Of a stretch of DNA of 64,000 bases, positions 45,037-59,433 are shown in pieces. The notes under the pieces were generated by a model that saw only the letters and a program-made list of their open reading frames with translations, ran no database searches and was not told the DNA's origin. Every line of letters starts with the position of its first letter. Position 1 is the first letter of the stretch. A program made the translations under genes and the position numbers. This DNA comes from Sphingopyxis sp. FD7 (GTDB lineage Bacteria; Pseudomonadota; Alphaproteobacteria; Sphingomonadales; Sphingomonadaceae), in assembly GCF_003609835.1 (NCBI RefSeq), contig NZ_AP017898.1:434001-498000 (forward strand). The letters are read 5' to 3'.

Positions 45037-45123
45037 GCCCAGATGGCGGAATTGGTAGACGCACCAGCTTCAGGTGCTGGCGATCGCAAGGTCGTGGAGG
45101 TTCGAGTCCTCTTCTGGGCACCA
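45037..45123 (+). tRNA. tRNA-Leu (anticodon CAG), probable integration site
   Basis: An 87-nt class II tRNA. The acceptor stem GCCCAGA pairs with TCTGGGC, followed by A and encoded CCA. The anticodon stem CCAGC/GCTGG encloses loop TTCAGGT with anticodon CAG at 45,071-45,073. There is a long variable arm, and the T arm contains GGTTCGAGTCC. A P4-type integrase begins 174 nt downstream in the same orientation, the usual layout when an element has integrated at the tRNA 3' end. Confidence 0.97.
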
Positions 45124-45225: not shown

Positions 45226-45297
45226 ACCATCAGCGTACCATCAGCTTTGATGGTGTTTTTGATGGTTTCGGTCAGCCTATCGAAGGTGAAACCATCA
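45226..45297. repeat. Five ACCATCA/TGATGGT heptamers upstream of the integrase
   Basis: ACCATCA occurs at 45,226-45,232, 45,237-45,243 and 45,291-45,297, and its complement TGATGGT at 45,248-45,254 and 45,260-45,266. The first four are spaced about 11 bp apart, one helical turn, and the last one overlaps the integrase ATG. They may be arm-type integrase or excisionase sites, or an operator for int. Confidence 0.75.
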
Positions 45298-46532
45298 TGT
45301 CGCTTACCCACATCCAGATTTCAAACGCTAAACCCAAGGAAAAAGCCTATAAATTGGCTGACGCCGACGCCCTGTACCTTGTGGTCAGGCCGAGCGGCGC
45401 AAAAGTCTGGCGAATGAACTATCGCTATCTCGATCGGCAAAAGACGCTCTATTTCGGGTCGTGGCCCGATGTCGGCATCGCGTCCGCTCGCGAATTGCGT
45501 GACGAGGCACGCAAGAAGCTCATCGCCGGGCTTGATCCCGCGGCGGAGAAGAAGGTCGCGCGGATCACCCAGAAGATCGCGCAGGACAACACGTTCAAGG
45601 CCATCGCCGAGGAATGGCTGGTGAAAATCGAACGAGAAGAGCGCGCGCCAGTCACGCTTCGGAAGGTACGATGGCTCCTCGACATCGCCGAACCGATGAT
45701 CGGCAGTCGCCCGATATCGAAACTCACCGCGCAGGAAATCCTGGCCGTTCTCCGTAAAGTCGAGGCGAACGGCCGATATGAAAGCGCGCGGCGCATGCGG
45801 AGCGTGATTAGCCGAGTGTTCCGCTACGCCATTGCGACCGCCAGAGCCGACCGCGATCTCGCGGCCGATCTCCGCGGTGCGCTGATCACTCCGAAGGTGA
45901 AGCACCACGCCGCCATCACGGCCCCGAAGGACGTCGGCGCGCTGCTCCGCGCTATCGATGGTTACACTGGCCACGAACTCACCGCGGTCGCGCTTCGATT
46001 GACGCCGCACCTTTTCGTCAGACCGGGCGAACTGCGCCAGGCAGAATGGGCGGAGATTGATTACGATGATGCCGTCTGGTCGATCCCAGCCGAGAAGATG
46101 AAAATGCGCCGCTCGCTCTGCGTCCCCCTGTCACGGCAAGTTCTTGCGATGCTTGAAGAGCTCCGCGCCCTTACCGGCCATGGGAAATATCTCTTCCCGT
46201 CCTTTCGGACGCCCCGCCGTTGCATGTCGGAGAATACTGTCAGCGCCGCGCTTCGGCGGCTGGGCTACAGCCGTGAAGAGATGACGGCTCATGGATTCCG
46301 CGCGACGGCCGCCACTCTCCTCAACCAGATGGGAATGTGGCACCCGGATGCGATCGAAAGGCAACTGGCACATCTAGATGCCAATGCGACGCGCCGGGTC
46401 TACACCCGGGGCGAATATTGGGATGAACGTGTTCGCATGATGCAGCATTGGTCCGACTATCTCGACGAACTGCGCGATGGTGCGCAAATTCTCCGCCCTG
46501 CCTTCGGCAAAAGTGCAACCTCGACCGCCTAG
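45297..46532 (+). CDS. Tyrosine-type site-specific integrase, P4 family
   Basis: A 411-residue integrase. The N-terminal DUF4102 arm-binding domain (about residues 1-90) has ALYLVVRPSGAKVWRMNYR. A core-binding domain follows. The catalytic domain (about 205-385) has Arg in LFVRPGELRQAEW, the HxxR box in HGFRATAATLLNQMG, a second His in LAHLDANATRRVY and the nucleophile Tyr in VYTRGEYW. Such enzymes integrate elements at tRNA 3' ends, consistent with tRNA-Leu just upstream. Its last codons overlap the convergent AlpA-like gene by 4 nt. Confidence 0.95.
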   Translation: MSLTHIQISNAKPKEKAYKLADADALYLVVRPSGAKVWRMNYRYLDRQKTLYFGSWPDVGIASARELRDEARKKLIAGLDPAAEKKVARITQKIAQDNTFKAIAEEWLVKIEREERAPVTLRKVRWLLDIAEPMIGSRPISKLTAQEILAVLRKVEANGRYESARRMRSVISRVFRYAIATARADRDLAADLRGALITPKVKHHAAITAPKDVGALLRAIDGYTGHELTAVALRLTPHLFVRPGELRQAEWAEIDYDDAVWSIPAEKMKMRRSLCVPLSRQVLAMLEELRALTGHGKYLFPSFRTPRRCMSENTVSAALRRLGYSREEMTAHGFRATAATLLNQMGMWHPDAIERQLAHLDANATRRVYTRGEYWDERVRMMQHWSDYLDELRDGAQILRPAFGKSATSTA

Positions 46533-50062: not shown

Positions 50063-52315
50063 ATGACTTTTCCGATTTTCAAACTCGCCGACACTCAATA
50101 TTCCGGCGCCCGGGAAAAGTGCGAACGCCTCCACGGCGTTGCGCGAGCGCTGCAAACCCGGCTCGCCGACCCGCAATCGGTAACGCGTTCGCTCCTCAAA
50201 GGGCTCATGTCGGAGGCGTTCTGTGGCTCCGATGCCGACGGACACTGGTCGATGCGCGACGCCTATGACGCGCTCGAAGCGGCGCAGGCTTCGAACATGC
50301 TGTCGCTCGATGAAGGCCAAAACCCGGACTGCGCGCCGGAGGATGCCTTCTCGGCCATTCTCGCCTTCGAGAAGGCGCTGCCAACCCAGACCTATCGCAG
50401 CGAACACCAGGTCGAGATGCAGCAGTTCAGCACGCCAGCCGCACTCGGCTGGCTAGCGACGCGTGCAGCGGCGATTACGGCCGACAACCATGTGCTCGAA
50501 CCGTCGGCGGGCACCGGCATGCTCGCAGCGCGCGCGATCGCCGCCGGAGCCTCCGTAACCCTCAACGAACGCGATCCCTGCCGCGCCGCGCTGCTCGCTC
50601 TCGTGACGAACGCCGACGTCACCACGCACGATGCCGAGTTCATCAACGACCGGCTGCCGCCGGATGTTCGGCCCACCGTCGTCCTGATCAATCCGCCTTT
50701 CAGCCGCAGCGAAGGCCGCGGCGAGGATCGCCACGCCGGTGCCCGCCACCTTCGCTCCGCGTTGCTCCGCCTCGCCGACGGCGGACGCTGCGTCGCAATC
50801 ATGTCGCCGGCCTTTGCTCATGACGGCAGCGGCGCCCGCGGCTATGTCTCGGTCGCCGAGATCTCTCGTCCGCGCGTCGAGATTACCATTCTCGGCCGCC
50901 CGTACGTCAAGCATGGGACCGGCATCGCCGTTCGGCTGATCGTCTTCGACAAGGGCTGGATCGGCGAGACCGAACGCCACACGGTCGATACGATCGAGGC
51001 GGCGTTGCCCATCGTGCTTGCGCTCCCGCCCCGGTTGCACCCATCCGACAAACCGCCCCCCGCCTCGCCGGCGGTGATCCCGTTCCGTCCGGCGCTCAAA
51101 TCCGCGTCGGGATCGCTCTTTTCCGGGCTCGCGAGCCCCAAGGTCATGGCGCCGTCGCGGATCGCCGCCAAGGACGATCCGGCCGAACCGCTCGCTTACT
51201 CTGTTCGTGACGCGCCGCTACCGGTCGGTGATCCCGTCGGCATCTACGCGCCCTGGCGCCTCGCCCGGATAGATATTCCGGGCGCGACGCCTCATCCCGA
51301 CAATCTTGTTGAATCGCTGGCCATGGCGTCGGTACTGCCGCCGATGCCGCAGTATCGCCCGCTCTTACAGAAGCGGGCGAGCAGCGCACTGTCCGATGCT
51401 CAGCTCGAAGCGATCATCTATGCTGGCGATGCTTTCTCACGCGACCTGCCGGGCCGGTTCGTGCCCAATGAAGCAGGCGACCAGCTGCGCGAGGATGCGG
51501 ACGGCCATGCTTATCGCATGGGCTTCTTCATTGGCGACGGCACCGGCGTCGGCAAGGGGCGCGAGGGCGCCGCGATCATTCGAGACCAGTGGAACTGCGG
51601 CAACCGCCGCGCCGTCTGGATTTCGAGGGGCGCGACGCTACTCGAGGATGCGCGCCGCGACTGGACCGCGCTCGGTGGCCTCCCGATCGACATCCAGCCG
51701 CTCGACGCATTCCCGATCGGGCAGCCGATCGGCATGGCGAGCGGCATCCTCTTCCTCACCTATGCGACGCTCCGCTCGCAGCGTCACGATCAATGCTCAC
51801 GTCTCCAGCAGATCCTCCAGTGGACGGAAGGCACTTTCGAGGGCGTGATCCTGTTCGACGAATCCCATTCGATGGGCAATGCGGCGGGCACCAAGGACGA
51901 ATATCGCCAGGCCAAGGGGTCTGAACAGGGATTGGCCGGAGTGCGCCTGCAGAACGCACTGCCGCGCGCCCGGGTGGTCTATGAATCGGCCACCGGCGCC
52001 ACCAAGCCCGAGAATCTGAGCTATGCCTCGCGGCTCGGGCTTTGGGGGCCCGGCACGGCCTTCGTGAACCGCGACGCTTTTCTCGCTGCGATGACCGACG
52101 GCGGTATCGCGGCGATGGAAATCGTCGCCCGCGACCTCAAATCCATGGGTCTCTACACGGCGCGTGCGCTCAGTTTCGCCGGCGTCGAATATGACCCGCT
52201 CGAGCATCGGCTGACGCTCGACCAGATCGAGATCTACGACGCCTATGCCGACGCATGGGCGATTTTATGCGCAGCTGCGCATAAGATCGCTTATCGCGAG
52301 GTCGCGATAATGTGA
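50063..52315 (+). pseudogene. Methyltransferase / Strawberry-notch helicase, N-terminal part (interrupted)
   Basis: The N-terminal 734 residues of a DNA methyltransferase-helicase fusion. The methyltransferase domain (about residues 110-320) has the SAM motif VLEPSAGTGMLAARAIAAGA and the catalytic NPPF, an adenine-N6 type motif. A Strawberry-notch-like AAA helicase domain follows, with a Walker A-like FFIGDGTGVGKGREGA near 495 and Walker B VILFDESHSMGNA near 595. Native sequence stops at about 52,264 after DAWAI; the next 16 codons come from an inserted element and end at 52,315. The other half starts at 56,099. Confidence 0.92.
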
Positions 52316-52322
52316 AGGAACG
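52285..52322. repeat. Left inverted repeat of the RIT element
   Basis: A 38-nt terminal repeat with the core TTATCGCGAGGTCGCGATAA. It is complementary to 56,058-56,095 at all but three positions. Further in, CTGCGCATTAT at 52,362-52,372 partly mirrors ATAATGTGAAGG at 52,307, giving a nested hairpin. Confidence 0.9.
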
Positions 52323-52419
52323 CGGCAGCGACGTGGATTCTCCTAATGCGGGGCGATGTTGCTGCGCATTATTTTGATTGCGAACCTCGGCGGTCTCTGG
52401 ACCAGCTGAGGATAAAAGC

Positions 52420-53652
52420 ATGTTGAAATTGCACGACGAGTTGATCGCCGAACTCTCGAATTTGCTCACGACGCAGAATTATAACCCGGTGGTCGTAGCG
52501 AACCATCGCCTCTACGCCCGCGCGTTTCTCGATTATCTGGCCGAGTGCGACGTGCAGGTGGAAACTGTGACGCCGGCGCAGGTCGATCAGTATCTTGCCT
52601 ATGCAGTTCGGGATTTCGAAGCCCAGTACGGGCGGCCTCCCTGTGCGCGCTGGCAGATGTTGCCCCGCACGTCGATCAACAAACTGCTCCGGCTCGCCCA
52701 AGGCAAATGGCCGCCCGAGCCGGAGATGACCGAACCGGAGACCGCGTATCGGCAGGCGATCTGCTGCGAATACGAGGCATGGCTGCGCGACGAGCGCGGT
52801 CTGGCAAGCGCTTCCATCTCGGCGCTTCTGTGGGAGGCACGGAACTTCCTGCGATGGCAGTTCGAACGGGGCGGGGCTGCCAGCCTCGACACGTTGAGCA
52901 TCGGGGAGGTCGATCTCTACATGGACATGCGCGCCCCTGGATTACGGCGCAAATCATTGGCCGATGTCGCTGAGCGGCTCCGGTCGGTGGTGCGCTATCT
53001 GCATCGGACGAGGCGCATCCCGATGGATCTCACGCCGCACATCATCGGCCCCATGCTCTACGCCTATGAAGACGTGCCCTCGACGCTGGACAGGCGCCAA
53101 ATCGCCGCGGTGCTGGCGGCGACGAAGAAGGATGGATCGCCGCGGGGACTGCGCGATTTTGCGGTACTTCAACTGCTTGCCACATATGGGTTGCGCGAAG
53201 GTGAGATCTGTCGCCTTCGGCTTGAAGACGTGAATTGGCGCGGAGAAGCCCTGCGTATCCGTCACACCAAGACCAATGCGTACTCCTACTTGCCGCTATT
53301 GGCGCCGGTTGGTGAGGCGCTCCTCGACTATCTGCGTAATGGGCGCCCCCAGGTTGAGGGGCGGGAAATCTTCATCCGGTCCTGCGCGCCCTATATCGCA
53401 ATGACAAACCTGTATGGCATGATCCGCGGGCGGTTGTCAGCCGCTGGCGTCGAGCCGCCGGGAAAGCGAGGGGCGCATGTCTTCCGCCACGCGCGAGCGG
53501 TCGAACTACTGCGGGCGTCGGTCCCGCAAAAGATCATCGGCGACGTGCTCGGACATCGATCCACCGAATCCACCAACGCCTATCTCAAGCTGGCGACAGA
53601 TGATCTCCGAGCCGTGGCGCTCGACGTGCCCGGATCGGAGGTGCTGCCATGA
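52420..53652 (+). CDS. RIT element tyrosine recombinase, first gene (RitA-type)
   Basis: A 410-residue site-specific recombinase. The N-terminal SAM-like DNA-binding region includes NHRLYARAFLDYLAECDVQ. The catalytic domain has Arg in LLATYGLREGEICRLRLEDV near 268, HxxR in HVFRHARAVELL near 355, the GH box in IIGDVLGHRSTESTN and the nucleophile Tyr in NAYLKLA near 389, so all key residues are present. The start at 52,420 follows GAGGA. Its stop overlaps the start of the second recombinase (ATGA), implying coupled translation of the trio. Confidence 0.93.
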   Translation: MLKLHDELIAELSNLLTTQNYNPVVVANHRLYARAFLDYLAECDVQVETVTPAQVDQYLAYAVRDFEAQYGRPPCARWQMLPRTSINKLLRLAQGKWPPEPEMTEPETAYRQAICCEYEAWLRDERGLASASISALLWEARNFLRWQFERGGAASLDTLSIGEVDLYMDMRAPGLRRKSLADVAERLRSVVRYLHRTRRIPMDLTPHIIGPMLYAYEDVPSTLDRRQIAAVLAATKKDGSPRGLRDFAVLQLLATYGLREGEICRLRLEDVNWRGEALRIRHTKTNAYSYLPLLAPVGEALLDYLRNGRPQVEGREIFIRSCAPYIAMTNLYGMIRGRLSAAGVEPPGKRGAHVFRHARAVELLRASVPQKIIGDVLGHRSTESTNAYLKLATDDLRAVALDVPGSEVLP

Positions 53653-55004
53653 GCGCCTGGCACGATCCCGATCGCACCGTCATCGACGCCTTCCTGGAAA
53701 AATCCCAGTTCCGGCAGGGAAGCAGGCCGACTTATCGCTGGTTCCTTCGCAGCTTCGAGAATGTAGCCCAGCGTCATCCGGCGGTCGACCGGCAGATGCT
53801 CGAAGTCTGGCTGAAGGAAATGGAAAAACGTTGGCGAATGTCGACGCTGCTCAACCAGGTCTGCATTGTCGATCGCTTCCTCGACCACCTCGTCGAAATC
53901 GGGCTGATCCCAGATCAGCCCGTTGCCGTGCTTCGCCGTCAATACAACGTCAAACAAAGCAAGCCGATCTGGCGAGCGCTGGCTTCCCCAAATCCCGACG
54001 GAGCCCTGGCCGCATTGCGACGCCCCGCGCCCTTCGGCAGCATGCTGGGGGACTTCATGCGTGAGCATGTCGCGTTGATGCGGAGCCGGGGGTATCAGTA
54101 TGAGACTCAGGCTCACTGGTTATTGCGGTTCGATCGGTTCCTCCAGGCGACCCCGGAACTGACAGGGGCATCGCTTGAGACGATGCTGGCGCGCTGGGCA
54201 ACTGCCAAGCCGACCCGCAATCACGCGGCTGAATGCCAGAAGCTCGGGCGCCTCCTGACCAAGGCGCGGTATCGCCTTGATCCCAGCATCCCACCGAAAC
54301 GCTTCAACGCCCGTCCCGAACGAGAAGTGGCACGAGAGCATCGACGACCGCATATCTTCAGCCCGGCCGACGTTCGGCAGATGCTCGACGTTGCCCGCTC
54401 CTATCCGTCGCCGGACGCGCCGCTGCGGCCGATGGTTCTCTACACCATGGTGGTTCTGGCCTATTGTGCCGGACTGCGCCGTAGTGAACTCGCCGGGCTC
54501 GATCTGGGTGACGTCGATCTTCAATCAGACACGATCACAGTGCGGGAAACGAAGTTCTACAAGACCAGGATATTGCCGCTAACCGGCAGCGTCATGGCCG
54601 AATTACGGGCCTATATCGATGCAAGGCGGCGCGCCGGCGCCCCACAGGATCCTCGGTCCGGGCTCTTCTGGCACGAGCACTTCAATGATCGCTATACCCC
54701 GGTGACGGTCTCAACGATGATCACCAACGTCATGCGCCGTGCCGGGTTCAAGGCCCCGACCGGGCGGACGGGGCCGCGTGTTCATGACCTGCGCCACTCG
54801 ATGGTCGTGAACCGGATCCTTCAATGGTATCGATCCGGCGTCAATCCGCAGGACAAACTGCGCTTCCTCTCCACCTACATGGGCCACCGGGACATCAACT
54901 CCACGCTGGTCTACATCACCGTCACGCAGGACCTGCTGCAGGAAGCAAGCGAGCGGTTCCGGACCGTCGGCGCCCGATGCCTCACGATGGAGGCGCGGTC
55001 ATGA
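53649..55004 (+). CDS. RIT element tyrosine recombinase, second gene (RitB-type)
   Basis: A 451-residue recombinase. Near the N-terminus are RPTYRWFLRSFENVAQRHP and a core-binding region around residues 130-200. The catalytic domain has Arg in YCAGLRRSELAGLDLGDV near 277, HxxR in VHDLRHSMVVNRIL near 380, GH in LSTYMGHRDINSTL near 415 and Tyr in LVYITVTQ near 425. The ATG overlaps the preceding stop, and its own stop overlaps the next ATG. The gene order and graded sizes fit known RIT operons. Confidence 0.93.
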   Translation: MSAWHDPDRTVIDAFLEKSQFRQGSRPTYRWFLRSFENVAQRHPAVDRQMLEVWLKEMEKRWRMSTLLNQVCIVDRFLDHLVEIGLIPDQPVAVLRRQYNVKQSKPIWRALASPNPDGALAALRRPAPFGSMLGDFMREHVALMRSRGYQYETQAHWLLRFDRFLQATPELTGASLETMLARWATAKPTRNHAAECQKLGRLLTKARYRLDPSIPPKRFNARPEREVAREHRRPHIFSPADVRQMLDVARSYPSPDAPLRPMVLYTMVVLAYCAGLRRSELAGLDLGDVDLQSDTITVRETKFYKTRILPLTGSVMAELRAYIDARRRAGAPQDPRSGLFWHEHFNDRYTPVTVSTMITNVMRRAGFKAPTGRTGPRVHDLRHSMVVNRILQWYRSGVNPQDKLRFLSTYMGHRDINSTLVYITVTQDLLQEASERFRTVGARCLTMEARS

Positions 55005-56005
55005 CGAAGGGCAATCTCTTCCCCGCATTGTTGCGGGCGTTCTTCCAGGAATGGTTGGCTGAGCAACGCAGTGCATCTGTCCATACGATCCGGTCTTACC
55101 GCGACACCTGGCGGTTATTGCTTCGGTTCATCGCGGGGCGAAAGGGCGGCGGGGTCGCGCGAATCATGCTGGCCGACGTCTCGGCCGGAGAGGTTCGCGC
55201 GTTCCTCCACCATACCGAGCATGGGCGCAGGGGCACGATCGGTACACGCAACTGCCGGCTCGCCGCGATCCGCAGCTTCTTCAGCTTCGTGGCTGACAAG
55301 GATCCCGAATACATCGCGCAATGCGCCGAGGTCCTGACCGTCCCGCTCAAGCGGGAGCCTACCGTTGCACCCTGCTATCTCGAGCCGGAGGAGGTCGAAG
55401 CGATCCTTGCTCAGCCCGACCGGTCGACAATCGAGGGAATGCGCGACCACGTGCTACTCTCGTTCCTATATAACAGCGGCGCGCGCATCCAGGAGGCCCT
55501 CGACCTCTGTCCCGAGGCGATCCGGTTCGACGCACCGAACTTCGTGCGTCTTTACGGCAAGGGTCGCAAGGAACGTATCTGTCCGCTCTGGCCGGAAACC
55601 GTGGCGTTGCTCAGGAAGTTGTTGGAACGTCACCCGCGCGCGCCAGATCAGCGGATCTTCGTCAATCGATATGGTGAGCCGCTGGGCGCCTCGGGAGTGC
55701 GGTTCAAACTCGCCTCCTATGTAGGAAAGGCGTCAGAAACCGTGCCGTCGCTTCGGTCCAAAAATGTGACGCCGCACAGCTTCCGGCACGCGACCGCCGT
55801 TCACCTTGTCGCTGCCGGAGTCGACATCACCGTCATCCGCAGTTGGCTGGGACACGTCAGCCTCGATACGACCAACCACTACGCACAGGCCAATCTGGAG
55901 ACCAAACGGAAGGCGCTTGAGCAGGTGGGCGCGCCGGCGGCGAGCAACGTGCCACCTTCGTGGAAACGAGATGCCAGCCTGATGGAGTGGCTCGATACCT
56001 TGTGA
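55001..56005 (+). CDS. RIT element tyrosine recombinase, third gene (RitC-type)
   Basis: A 334-residue XerC/D-like recombinase. A core-binding domain occupies residues 5-95 (LFPALLRAFFQEWLAEQRSA). The catalytic domain has Arg in YNSGARIQEALDL near 158, Lys in RLYGKGRKERICPL near 183, HxxR in HSFRHATAVHLV near 263, GH in WLGHVSLDTTN near 290 and Tyr in HYAQANLETK near 299. The set is complete. The ATG overlaps the stop of the second gene. The stop falls at the edge of the right terminal region. Confidence 0.93.
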   Translation: MTKGNLFPALLRAFFQEWLAEQRSASVHTIRSYRDTWRLLLRFIAGRKGGGVARIMLADVSAGEVRAFLHHTEHGRRGTIGTRNCRLAAIRSFFSFVADKDPEYIAQCAEVLTVPLKREPTVAPCYLEPEEVEAILAQPDRSTIEGMRDHVLLSFLYNSGARIQEALDLCPEAIRFDAPNFVRLYGKGRKERICPLWPETVALLRKLLERHPRAPDQRIFVNRYGEPLGASGVRFKLASYVGKASETVPSLRSKNVTPHSFRHATAVHLVAAGVDITVIRSWLGHVSLDTTNHYAQANLETKRKALEQVGAPAASNVPPSWKRDASLMEWLDTL

Positions 56006-56006
56006 A

Positions 56007-56095
56007 ATAATGTGAAGGACGTGGCGAAATGCTCAGCAGCTTTGCGGGCCTTCGCCACGTTCCTGCGCATTATCGCGACCTCGCGATAAGCGATC
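56007..56095. repeat. Right end of the RIT element: inverted repeat and nested hairpin
   Basis: The terminal repeat at 56,058-56,095 mirrors the left end. Inside it, ATAATGTGAAGGACGTGGCG (56,007-56,026) pairs with CGCCACGTTCCTGCGCATTA (56,053-56,072) apart from three mismatches and a bulge, so this end can fold into a long hairpin. The motif ATAATGTGAAGGA is shared with the left end. Confidence 0.85.
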
Positions 56096-56098
56096 GTT

Positions 56099-58189
56099 CA
56101 CCAGAACCTCGATGAGGTGCTCAAAGCCTCGAACATCGTCGACCGCATGTCGGGCCTGACGATGAACGCCATGGCCAAGGGCTCGGCGCTCAGCCGGTTC
56201 GAGAGCGCCAAGCAGCGCTTCTTCTCCCAAGTGCTGATCGCGATGAAGATGCCGACCATCGTTCGTGCGATCGAGGAGGAGCTGGCAGCCGGCCATGTCG
56301 CCGTCGTGCAACTGACCAGCACGGCCGAGGCGATCCTCGAACGCCGTCTTGCGGGCCTTTCGCCGCACGAACGCGCCAACCTCGCGATCGACGTCTCGCC
56401 GCTCGATACGCTGATCGATTATCTGAAGACCGCCTTCCCGACGCGTCAGATGCGCGCCTTTCGTTCGTCCGACGGGGCAATGCGCTCTGAGCCGATGCAC
56501 GATGGCGACGGCAATGCTGTCCTCTGCCAGGAAGCGGTCGAGGCGCGCGACAATTTGGTCGAAAGCCTCTGCTCGATGCCGCCGGTCCCGGCCGCGCTCG
56601 ACTTCCTGATCGCGCATTTCGGAACCGACACCGTCGCCGAGGTCACGGGCCGGACCCGGCGCGTCGTCATCGACGGGCAGGGCCGCCAGAAACTCGAGCG
56701 CCGCAGCACCAGCTCCAATATCGCCGAGACCGACGCTTTCATGTCGGGACGCAAACCGATCCTCGTCTTCTCGGAAGCGGGCGGAACCGGGCGCTCCTAT
56801 CACGCCGACCTCGATTGTCCGACCGCGCACAAGCGACGCATCCACTTCCTTCTGGAACCGGGCTGGCGCGCCGACATCGCGATCCAGGGTCTCGGCCGCA
56901 CCCATCGCACCTACCAGTGGAAGCCGCCGGTGTTCCGCCCCGTCACGACCAACTGCAAGGGCGAACGCCGCTTCATCAGCACCATCGCGCGACGCCTCGA
57001 TACCCTCGGCGCCCTCACACGCGGCCAGCGCCAGACCGGTGGCCAGAATCTGTTCGACCCGGCTGACAATCTCGAAAGCAGCTATGCCCGCGAAGCACTT
57101 ACCCAATGGTATCATCTGCTCCATGCCGGCAAGCTCGCGAGCGTCGATCTCGAGAATTTTCAGATCATCACGGGACTGAAGCTCGTCGACGAGAATGGCA
57201 CGCTGCTCGACAAGCTGCCGCCGATCCAGCGCTGGCTCAACCGCATCCTCGCGCTACGCATCGCGACTCAGGATGCCATATTCGAGGAATATATGGGGCT
57301 CATCCAGGCCCGCGTCGATGCGGCCCGCGAAGCGGGGACGCTAGATCTCGGGGTCGAGGCAATCCGGGCCGAACGCATCGTCCAGCTTTCGGAGCAAGTG
57401 CTCAGGAAAGATCCGGTCTCCGGCGCCGAAACCCGTCTGCTCCGTCTCGAACTTCACCTCAAACCGCGCGTTACGGGGTGGGCCCGCCTCGACAAGATCT
57501 GGGGCGCTTCCTCGGATGTCCAGTATCTGCGCAACAGCCGTTCGGGGCGTGTGGCCCTTTGCGTTCCGTCCTGGTCGATCACCGACGAAGACGGGAGGCC
57601 CGTCAAGATGATGGAGCTTGTCCGTCCGACAGGTTCGAACCGCATCCAGCTTGCCGGTCTCGGGCATACAAACTGGGAGGAGATCGACCGCGACAGCTTC
57701 CGGAGCCTCTGGGAATCCGAGGTCGGCGAAGCACTCGACAAGGTCGATATTGAGACGATCAGTGTCGCGACTGGTCTCCTGCTCCCCGTCTGGAACAAAC
57801 TGCCACAGGACGACGTCCGTGTCTGGCGGATCGACGACGCAGCGGGAACGTCGATCCTCGGTCGCATCGTGATGCCCGGGGCGATCGAGAAGCTGGAATC
57901 GGCTTTCGGGCTCACTTCCTCGATCGTGCTCACGCCTGACGAACTGATCGAGGCTGCCCGGCATGGCGATGGCGCCCTTTTACCCGGGCTGCACGGCGCG
58001 CGTCTCGTGTCGGCGATGGTGAACGACAGCCGTCGGCTTGAGATCCGGGACTTCCGGCCTCAGGACCGCGAATGGCTGAAGGCGCGCGGCGCGTTTAGCG
58101 AGGTGATTGCATACAAGACCCGGCTCTTCCTCCCGGCGGGAAAGGCCGATGAAATCCTGACCACCATCATCGCCGAGCCGCCACAATGA
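56099..58189 (+). pseudogene. Methyltransferase / Strawberry-notch helicase, C-terminal part
   Basis: About 696 residues continuing the interrupted protein, beginning HQNLDEVLKASNIVDRMSG. The helicase C-terminal domain (SBNO-type) includes KPILVFSEAGGTGRSYHADL near residue 218 and the arginine-finger-like IAIQGLGRTHRTYQWKPP near 265, then a long conserved tail. With the first part the protein would be about 1,430 residues. A GTG at 56,117 could initiate a free-standing product, but no good ribosome-binding site is visible. Whether the fragment is still made is unknown. Confidence 0.9.
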
Positions 58190-58932: not shown

Positions 58933-59310
58933 GTGGGCGCACCGGTGCGGTGCCCGCAGCCCCGATACCACCTGTTCGCCGGACAGCGAAGTATCCCAAC
59001 CGGGCCAATCGACGCGGCTTGGCCGCAACGAAGTCTTGCCACTGGGCTTGAAGACGGCGAGGCTTTGCGAAAGAAGGACGATGTCGATCGCCTCTCGCGA
59101 GCGCAACAAGTCACGAGCTGGATCGCCCGAGGGCTGATCAACGTGAACCGTTGCGGTACCGGCCGAGCGAGCGCCCAAGGCGGTGACCAGTACTGGATAC
59201 GTGTCCGAGACGTCCGCGCCTTCATTATCGATAACGCTGCCGCGGTCGGCATCCGCAAGGTCGACAAATTTTGGTTGATCAACTCGTGGCGCACAGCGCC
59301 ATCTGACTGA
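58933..59310 (+). CDS. Hypothetical protein with helix-turn-helix-like C-terminal half
   Basis: A 125-residue frame starting with GTG. The second half, RAQQVTSWIARGLINVNRCG followed by QYWIRVRDVRAFIIDNAA and VGIRKVDKFWLINSW, resembles the C-terminal DNA-binding part of larger plasmid and phage proteins. The first half is not recognisable and the true start is uncertain, so it may be a remnant. Its stop codon lies within a CTGA tandem repeat. Confidence 0.5.
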   Translation: MGAPVRCPQPRYHLFAGQRSIPTGPIDAAWPQRSLATGLEDGEALRKKDDVDRLSRAQQVTSWIARGLINVNRCGTGRASAQGGDQYWIRVRDVRAFIIDNAAAVGIRKVDKFWLINSWRTAPSD

Positions 59311-59349
59311 CTGACTGACTGACTGACTGACTGACTGACTGACTGACTG
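59303..59349. repeat. CTGA tetranucleotide tandem repeat, 11.75 copies
   Basis: A 47-nt uninterrupted run of CTGA. Because the unit is 4 nt, every forward frame meets a TGA within it, and it supplies the stop of the preceding frame. It ends 84 nt before the DUF932 gene. Tracts like this change length by replication slippage. Confidence 0.97.
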
Positions 59350-59433
59350 TCGGGAGAGGAGGGGGTGGGGTCGGTGTGAGCCGGGCAGTGATTTCGCCCA
59401 CGCTCGACGTCCCCTTCTTGTCGGAGAGTTCCC

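Follow-up and report, generated by a model that had tools for sequence, protein, structure and literature searches.

Did the recombinase-in-trio (RIT) element that splits a helicase gene of Sphingopyxis sp. FD7 insert there by chance, or does the clade to which it belongs choose that site? The locus lies in a stretch of 64,000 nucleotides (contig NZ_AP017898.1, positions 434,001 to 498,000; hereafter the window, whose numbering is used below). The split gene, described in the initial annotation as a large gene of methyltransferase-helicase type, proved to be of that type and is SNO (strawberry-notch). The insertion had been taken for a single recent event. Genome and plasmid comparisons show instead that the target of this RIT clade is a fixed coding site, as close relatives have entered the same codons repeatedly, independently and in both orientations. 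The two host halves and the three recombinase genes between them are as follows.

50063..52263, + strand: 5' half of the SNO helicase gene, 733 complete codons, with the whole AAA_34 domain (PF13872 1-306/306, E 4e-113)
52420..53652, + strand: ritA, tyrosine recombinase, 410 amino acids (PF00589, E 4e-24, query from 52408; catalytic motifs)
53649..55004, + strand: ritB, tyrosine recombinase, 451 amino acids (PF00589, E 1.7e-19; catalytic motifs)
55001..56005, + strand: ritC, tyrosine recombinase, 334 amino acids (PF00589, E 1e-28, query from 54998; catalytic motifs)
56096..58189, + strand: SNO gene, 3' half, open to its stop; Helicase_C_4 domain (PF13871 2-270/271, E 3e-95); 699 codons to the stop from spacer 3 (listed below)

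Against the empty site the insert measures 3,831 bp, and the exact junction and target duplication that had been sought took the form of an imperfect 6-bp repeat bordering it, GCGATT on the left and GCGATC on the right. The insertion point lies between the helicase domains, with AAA_34 ending before it and Helicase_C_4 wholly after it. All three recombinase genes are intact and lie within the SNO frame; their order, ritA-ritB-ritC, is that of related trios, and ritA/ritB and ritB/ritC each overlap by 4 bp. The starts of RitA and RitC were placed by homology to an annotated relative (WP_008832423 for ritA). A motif scan found the R, HxxR and Y catalytic motifs in RitA, RitB and RitC alike. With the PF00589 matches and a 42-nt inverted repeat (52285-52326 and 56054-56095, 93% complementary), this bears out the earlier description of three complete, overlapping tyrosine recombinase genes with flanking inverted repeats as a RIT element.

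A scan of genome contigs with RitB alone returned 39 loci, 37 of them with a RitB identity of 78% or more. Nine are uninformative because their contigs stop at the element (L070, L074, L078, L081, L084, L086, L088, L089, L095); these carry RIT sequence only, broken off at or close to the element ends, as expected if a genome holds several copies or both orientations. SNO was found at the junction on one flank or both in 26 of the 28 informative loci of this group (by title, 22 of the 23 genomes), and the SNO insertions sit at the same codons wherever the junction is readable. The target motif is typically Trp-[Ala/Ser/Thr/Gly]-Ile-Ile-His, between the two SNO helicase domains. Among these 28 loci, L076 is counted as SNO though its junction is masked by N, and L080 and L085 are counted while L026 and L028 are not; in the tables of orientation, spacers and open reading frames, L080, L085, L106 and L042 were dropped as duplicates of L026, L028, L046 and L030. 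On plasmids, 21 RIT loci were picked by eye for spread among the matches listed (30 of 126 and 60 of 133 records), and the hand-chosen loci of the same clade had SNO as their target in 14/14. By comparison, no SNO lay within ~330 bp of the trio in any of ten loci with RitB 44-63% identical.

Two points weigh against a fixed target: L075 and L103, two of the 28 close relatives, are not in a recognisable SNO site, and several loci share a genome (three in Mesorhizobium sediminum, four in Salipiger bermudensis). An ordinary recent RIT insertion without a special target, to which SNO is incidental, would agree with the open frames of both host halves, the single copy and the close empty homologues of the window, as well as with the second SNO gene of the same genome, which is unoccupied. 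We nevertheless consider it extremely improbable, as the same site recurs in both sets of informative close relatives, in SNO proteins down to 49% identical; chance insertion was rejected on this recurrence.

The empty site that was to be sought in sister genomes is present. Six same-genus genomes (L006, L007, L008, L010, L011, L012) have an uninterrupted SNO gene in which the two flanks are adjacent, with 91-92% DNA identity to the window over the SNO 3' part. The second SNO gene of FD7 (L142, on another contig) is likewise empty, the matches to the two halves lying only 6 bp, the core, apart; its protein is ~48-51% identical to the SNO protein of the window. An intact SNO gene also lies on an empty-site plasmid, p3 of Novosphingobium sp. 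ES2-1 (L141). The search for further copies of the trio in this genome left a single copy, no second one being found by DNA search or RitB search, which more diverged RITs could escape. The locus had also been put forward as a natural empty-site comparison. Empty homologues do exist, but the window is not the best pair: L143 with L008 (99.92% over 2,639 bp and 100% over 1,497 bp) and L077 with L131 (100% over 3,272 bp and 99.93% over 1,479 bp) are cleaner. In the L077 element, ritB is itself split by ~2.2 kb of other DNA (L077:3776-6001).

Pairwise comparison of elements and host proteins shows that, as judged from sequence, the one SNO site has received repeated independent insertions. The comparison covered 29 full SNO insertions and thus 406 pairs that are not independent of one another (L071 was excluded by a length filter). 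Elements at least 98% identical form 49 pairs, and in 25 of these the SNO proteins around the site are less than 60% identical; the lowest SNO identity accompanying elements that are 100.0% identical over 3.8 kb is 49.1% (L026/L079). The converse is seen in L052 and L054, with SNO 99.8% identical and elements only 83.4% identical. The window element is 98.6-98.7% identical to those of L044, L045, L048 and L068, whose SNO proteins are 57-58% identical to that of the window, and the nearest occupied SNO relative of the window, L027 (97%), has an element just 84% identical. A single insertion per SNO lineage, with later copying from one SNO gene to another through homologous recombination or gene conversion in the flanks, could account for L044/L068 and L045/L048, which share both element and SNO type. 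Such spread seems very unlikely and was rejected, since elements 99.9-100% identical lie in SNO proteins that are 49-60% identical over ~400 residues around the site; in addition, L077/L131 and L143/L008 differ essentially by the insert alone.

How the element enters this site can be approached through its ends. The initial annotation lacked two of their parts, a 20-bp palindrome (module M) and 6-bp spacers, which are now resolved across loci. From the SNO 5' half, the order in the window is spacer 1, M, spacer 2, the left terminal palindrome P_L, ritA-ritB-ritC, the right terminal palindrome P_R, spacer 3 and the SNO 3' half.

52259..52264, + strand: spacer 1, GCGATT, adjoining module M; one base off the closest empty site, GCGATC (flank 97% identical)
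52265..52284, no strand: module M, a perfect 20-bp palindrome, TTATGCGCAGCTGCGCATAA, on the SNO 5' side
52285..52290, + strand: spacer 2, GATCGC, the reverse complement of spacer 3
52291..52310, no strand: left terminal palindrome P_L, TTATCGCGAGGTCGCGATAA
56070..56089, no strand: right terminal palindrome P_R, TTATCGCGACCTCGCGATAA, its last 3 bases an in-frame TAA for SNO
56090..56095, + strand: spacer 3, GCGATC, the target 6 bp (codons Ala-Ile), the same as in the closest empty site (flank 94% identical)

The anatomy is constant across insertions: SNO 5' half, 6-bp spacer, 20-bp M, 6-bp spacer, RIT in either orientation, 6-bp spacer, SNO 3' half. ATAA or TTAT bounds each spacer on its element side. 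Comparison of the loci shows the 6-bp spacers, M on the target 5' side, both orientations and, in well-matched cases, the native spacer on the 3' side. A resemblance of the spacer site to dif was also considered. The arms of a dif site are TGCGCATAA and TTAT; when the FD7 genome was scanned with a single dif-like pattern built on these arms, the RIT site was the sole match, and no tie to the chromosomal dif emerged. The exact 20-bp palindrome M of the window also adjoins a recombinase trio in the betaproteobacterium Robbsia andropogonis (L104:4001-4020). In L090, ~2.7 kb of other DNA separates the RIT end from the SNO 5' half (L090:9019-11693), and M was not found beside the element.

The native 6 bp appears to stay by the SNO 3' half and the imported 6 bp to lie by M. 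In the occupied sites whose 300-bp flanks both reach 90% identity to an empty site (window, L027, L049, L055, L077), spacer 3 equals the empty core in 5/5 and spacer 1 differs from it in 5/5. Where the 3' flank alone is available, at 100% identity (L020, L114), spacer 3 is kept. Other observations count against this rule. With the 3' flank alone at least 90% identical (n = 10), spacer 3 is identical in seven loci and one synonymous base (GGC/GGA) off in three, namely L068, L083 and L110 (3' flank 90-92%), all compared with L109; spacer 1 of L065 (5' flank 90%) differs from L109 by that same base. The window's own spacer 1, GCGATT, is also the native core of the empty sites L011 and L012. Spacer 1 of the window is probably an imported 6 bp, but since its single differing base is native in L011 and L012, this locus could not establish the rule by itself. 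Over 31 loci (the misread L067 among them), the resemblance between spacers 1 and 3 exceeds that of shuffled pairs (0 of 10,000 shuffles as good). Again on the opposing side, without the CGGAC group this similarity is no longer clear (p = 0.09; 28 loci, L067 included), and therefore little spacer homology seems to be needed, unlike in many tyrosine recombinases.

The orientation of the element and the sense of M bear directly on the mode of insertion. Among 30 full SNO insertions, 21 are forward and 9 flipped (L067 was left out, both of its flanks being SNO 5' halves). We found 43 module junctions, 40 of them of the SNO type (39 without the duplicate L080), with M on the SNO 5' side in all; L100 and L101 belong to another target and L103 is unclear. 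In the eight full loci whose elements are 99.9-100% identical, M reads TTATGGCGAGCTGCGCATAA in 6/6 forward insertions and its reverse complement in 2/2 flipped ones. The contig-end locus L040, which is flipped and stands outside the identity comparison, fits this pattern of an asymmetric M, and M of L100 and L101 (other target, element identity not computed) are likewise reverse complements of each other. Against this pattern stands L054, whose diverged element is a forward insertion with M in the opposite sense; over long times, then, the sense of M can change.

The two orientations might also arise by inversion of the RIT in place, between spacers 2 and 3, as an invertible switch. In favour of such a switch, P_L and P_R form inverted repeats, and in the window the sequence of spacer 2 is exactly that of spacer 3 on the opposite strand; reversed spacer 2 also resembles the target core, with A, T and C at positions 4-6 in 23, 27 and 26 of the 28 non-CGGAC loci. 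A flip of the RIT alone would not reverse the asymmetric M, which is reversed in both full flipped loci and in L040, and was rejected as the sole source of orientation. Inversion of M and RIT as one unit is also disfavoured, as it would place M on the SNO 3' side, where it was seen in 0/40 SNO-type junctions. On the whole, we regard an invertible switch as unlikely. Some loci depart from the regular arrangement: two SNO 5' halves flank the element in L047, L067 and L102 and two 3' halves in L028 and L073, which suggests recombination between occupied sites or replicons.

As the asymmetric M turns with the RIT, we propose a circle with two usable spacers flanking M. It is our favoured explanation, held with good confidence, that this RIT clade recognises one conserved SNO site and that such a circle accounts for the insertions. 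In the circle, the joint would read P_R - 6 bp - M - 6 bp - P_L, and recombination at either spacer would give the two orientations. Such a circle would explain both the orientations and the side and sense of M, as neither form of in-place inversion does. M would always join the 5' part of the target, and a terminal palindrome would join the 3' part. The spacer brought by the circle would come to lie next to M, and that of the target would remain on the opposite side, as if one specific strand were exchanged.

This scheme can be set beside known systems. On one side, a new insertion of a strand-biased circularizing element (SE) or of Tn554 keeps the native 6 bp, and on the other it carries the imported 6 bp (PMC10214605). 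Tyrosine recombinases, a 6-bp spacer and native and imported copies on opposite sides are thus shared with the element described here, a likeness of mechanism only (PMC10214605). The SE gene set is IntA, Tfp, IntB and Srap, whereas here three recombinase genes fill 3.8 kb, and the remaining open reading frames overlap these genes in different frames (no Tfp or Srap profile search was made). Tn554 has TnpA, TnpB and TnpC, of which TnpC is not a recombinase; here all three genes match PF00589, and module M and both orientations at one site are found in addition. GInts share three tyrosine recombinase-type genes and target specificity with our element but have four conserved genes, ginA-ginD, and a median length of 34.9 kb (PMC10214605), against three genes and 3.8 kb here (no GinC/GinD profile search).

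The initial annotation also held that the host protein breaks and rejoins in frame with no visible decay. Both halves are indeed open and homologues are continuous across the junction, but the 5' host frame of the window continues through spacer 1 and 16 more codons to a stop at 52313-52315, and an in-frame TAA (56087-56089) immediately precedes the SNO 3' half, as in other elements ending GATAA. It is possible that the insertion is tolerated or domesticated and that SNO survives as a two-subunit helicase. The insertion falls between domains; 30 of 33 SNO 5' halves closed by an upstream stop have at least 720 codons, and 20 of 38 3' halves closed by a stop have at least 690. As the insertions look young, open frames may reflect only their age and do not show a working split protein. 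Moreover, the short 5' halves include two that are broken, those of L069 and of one side of L047 (the third, in L067, owes its shortness to reading in a shifted frame, and tblastn covers it in one piece). A second site cuts 13 of the 38 3' halves, and five more are shortened (L054, L056, L079, L097, L099, three of them from one Mesorhizobium sediminum genome). A two-subunit helicase therefore seems doubtful to us. A solo M left behind by excision was seen in 0/44 empty SNO sites (DNA searches with two SNO 3' parts supplied 41 of these, the RIT DNA search another two and a plasmid the last; some share a genome).

Fixed sites are not limited to this SNO codon. In L060, L062 and L030, where RITs of a more distant clade (RitB ~60% identical) interrupt IS110 transposase genes, the flanking protein starts at position 91 of the IS110 transposase profile, a shared codon; L061 has the same motif by eye, without a Pfam match. 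In a third clade, L100 (5158-9016) and L101, the common fixed site is ANGWYA, and the gene that holds it has no Pfam match. Within SNO, 11 loci have another 20-bp palindrome, TAATGTTGAGCTCAACATTA or a close variant of it, at a second codon, SPREYV|IDYL in the 3' half: L044 (16152-19817), L026, L028, L045, L048, L049, L050, L055, L066, L082 and L107. A second, different recombinase trio stands at this codon in L044, L045, L048, L049 and L055. Trios in this region also occur in L051 and L052, where the palindrome pattern was not found.

More generally, we lean slightly towards a picture in which the hub of the circle is a 20-bp palindrome with two equivalent 6-bp spacers, each able to recombine, so that the element enters a fixed codon in both orientations with the hub always towards the target's 5' part, and in which every clade of RITs is matched to a single conserved coding motif in genes of other mobile elements (SNO with two sites, IS110 transposase), which would make RITs homing-like parasites of plasmids and transposons. 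We know of no other tyrosine recombinase element with this hub-and-two-spacers attachment logic. The target rule would also account for the occurrence of RITs within genes of other mobile elements, a site in a helicase gene that is widespread on plasmids providing transferable landing places.

RIT elements (ritA-ritB-ritC) are reportedly treated in Van Houdt 2009, Van Houdt 2012 and Ricker 2013, and the present element has their overlapping A-B-C recombinase trio, inverted repeats with overlapping palindromes, length of ~3.5-3.8 kb and location inside genes of mobile elements. RITs as such are known, but M and the target rule look new. The excerpts of the RIT literature found by a search for the recombinase-in-trio phrase, which did not cover Ricker 2013, Van Houdt 2009 or Nielsen 2017, describe neither the SNO target nor module M nor the spacer rule, and further literature searches brought up no additional RIT paper among the matches listed. 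Earlier hints of target choice are the rit elements that inactivate radC in two species and an IS66 tnpA (PMC2864759); a RIT has also been described within a Tn6049-type transposase (PMC3414803). The latter paper noted variable ends and, apart from a 28-9 bp inverted repeat with a palindrome, identified no convincing binding sites (PMC3414803), whereas here the ends are resolved as 6-bp spacers and a separate 20-bp M, with a fixed target codon in addition. RitA is described with two CB domains and RitC with an extra C-terminal helix (PMC8138268). In Table 1 of a 2023 comparison of tyrosine-recombinase elements, the target specificity, empty site and mode of movement of RITs are all given as "not tested" (PMC10214605). 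The loci collected here answer the question of target specificity in silico, offer near-perfect empty/occupied pairs and yield a specific, falsifiable model of movement that predicts the place of each 6 bp.

The SNO target gene of this RIT clade is carried by conjugative plasmids and integrative elements. The 126 plasmid records matching the element comprise 79 conjugative, 14 mobilizable and 33 non-mobilizable ones, and the 42-nt end sequence matches 45 plasmid records. In the window, genes for a toprim protein and a ParB-like protein lie upstream of SNO, and before those stands a phage-type integrase:

45037-45123: tRNA-Leu, beside the integrase
45297-46532: phage-type integrase, beside tRNA-Leu

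The tRNA-Leu and integrase probably mark the edge of an outer integrative element. The proposed nesting of the RIT in such an element is therefore likely as far as the integrase beside tRNA-Leu near the host gene is concerned, but the far end was not found: when another copy of the tRNA 3' end was looked for (19 bp, at most 1 mismatch), only the tRNA itself was recovered. Elsewhere in the window, a run of the 4-base unit CTGA occupies 59303-59357.

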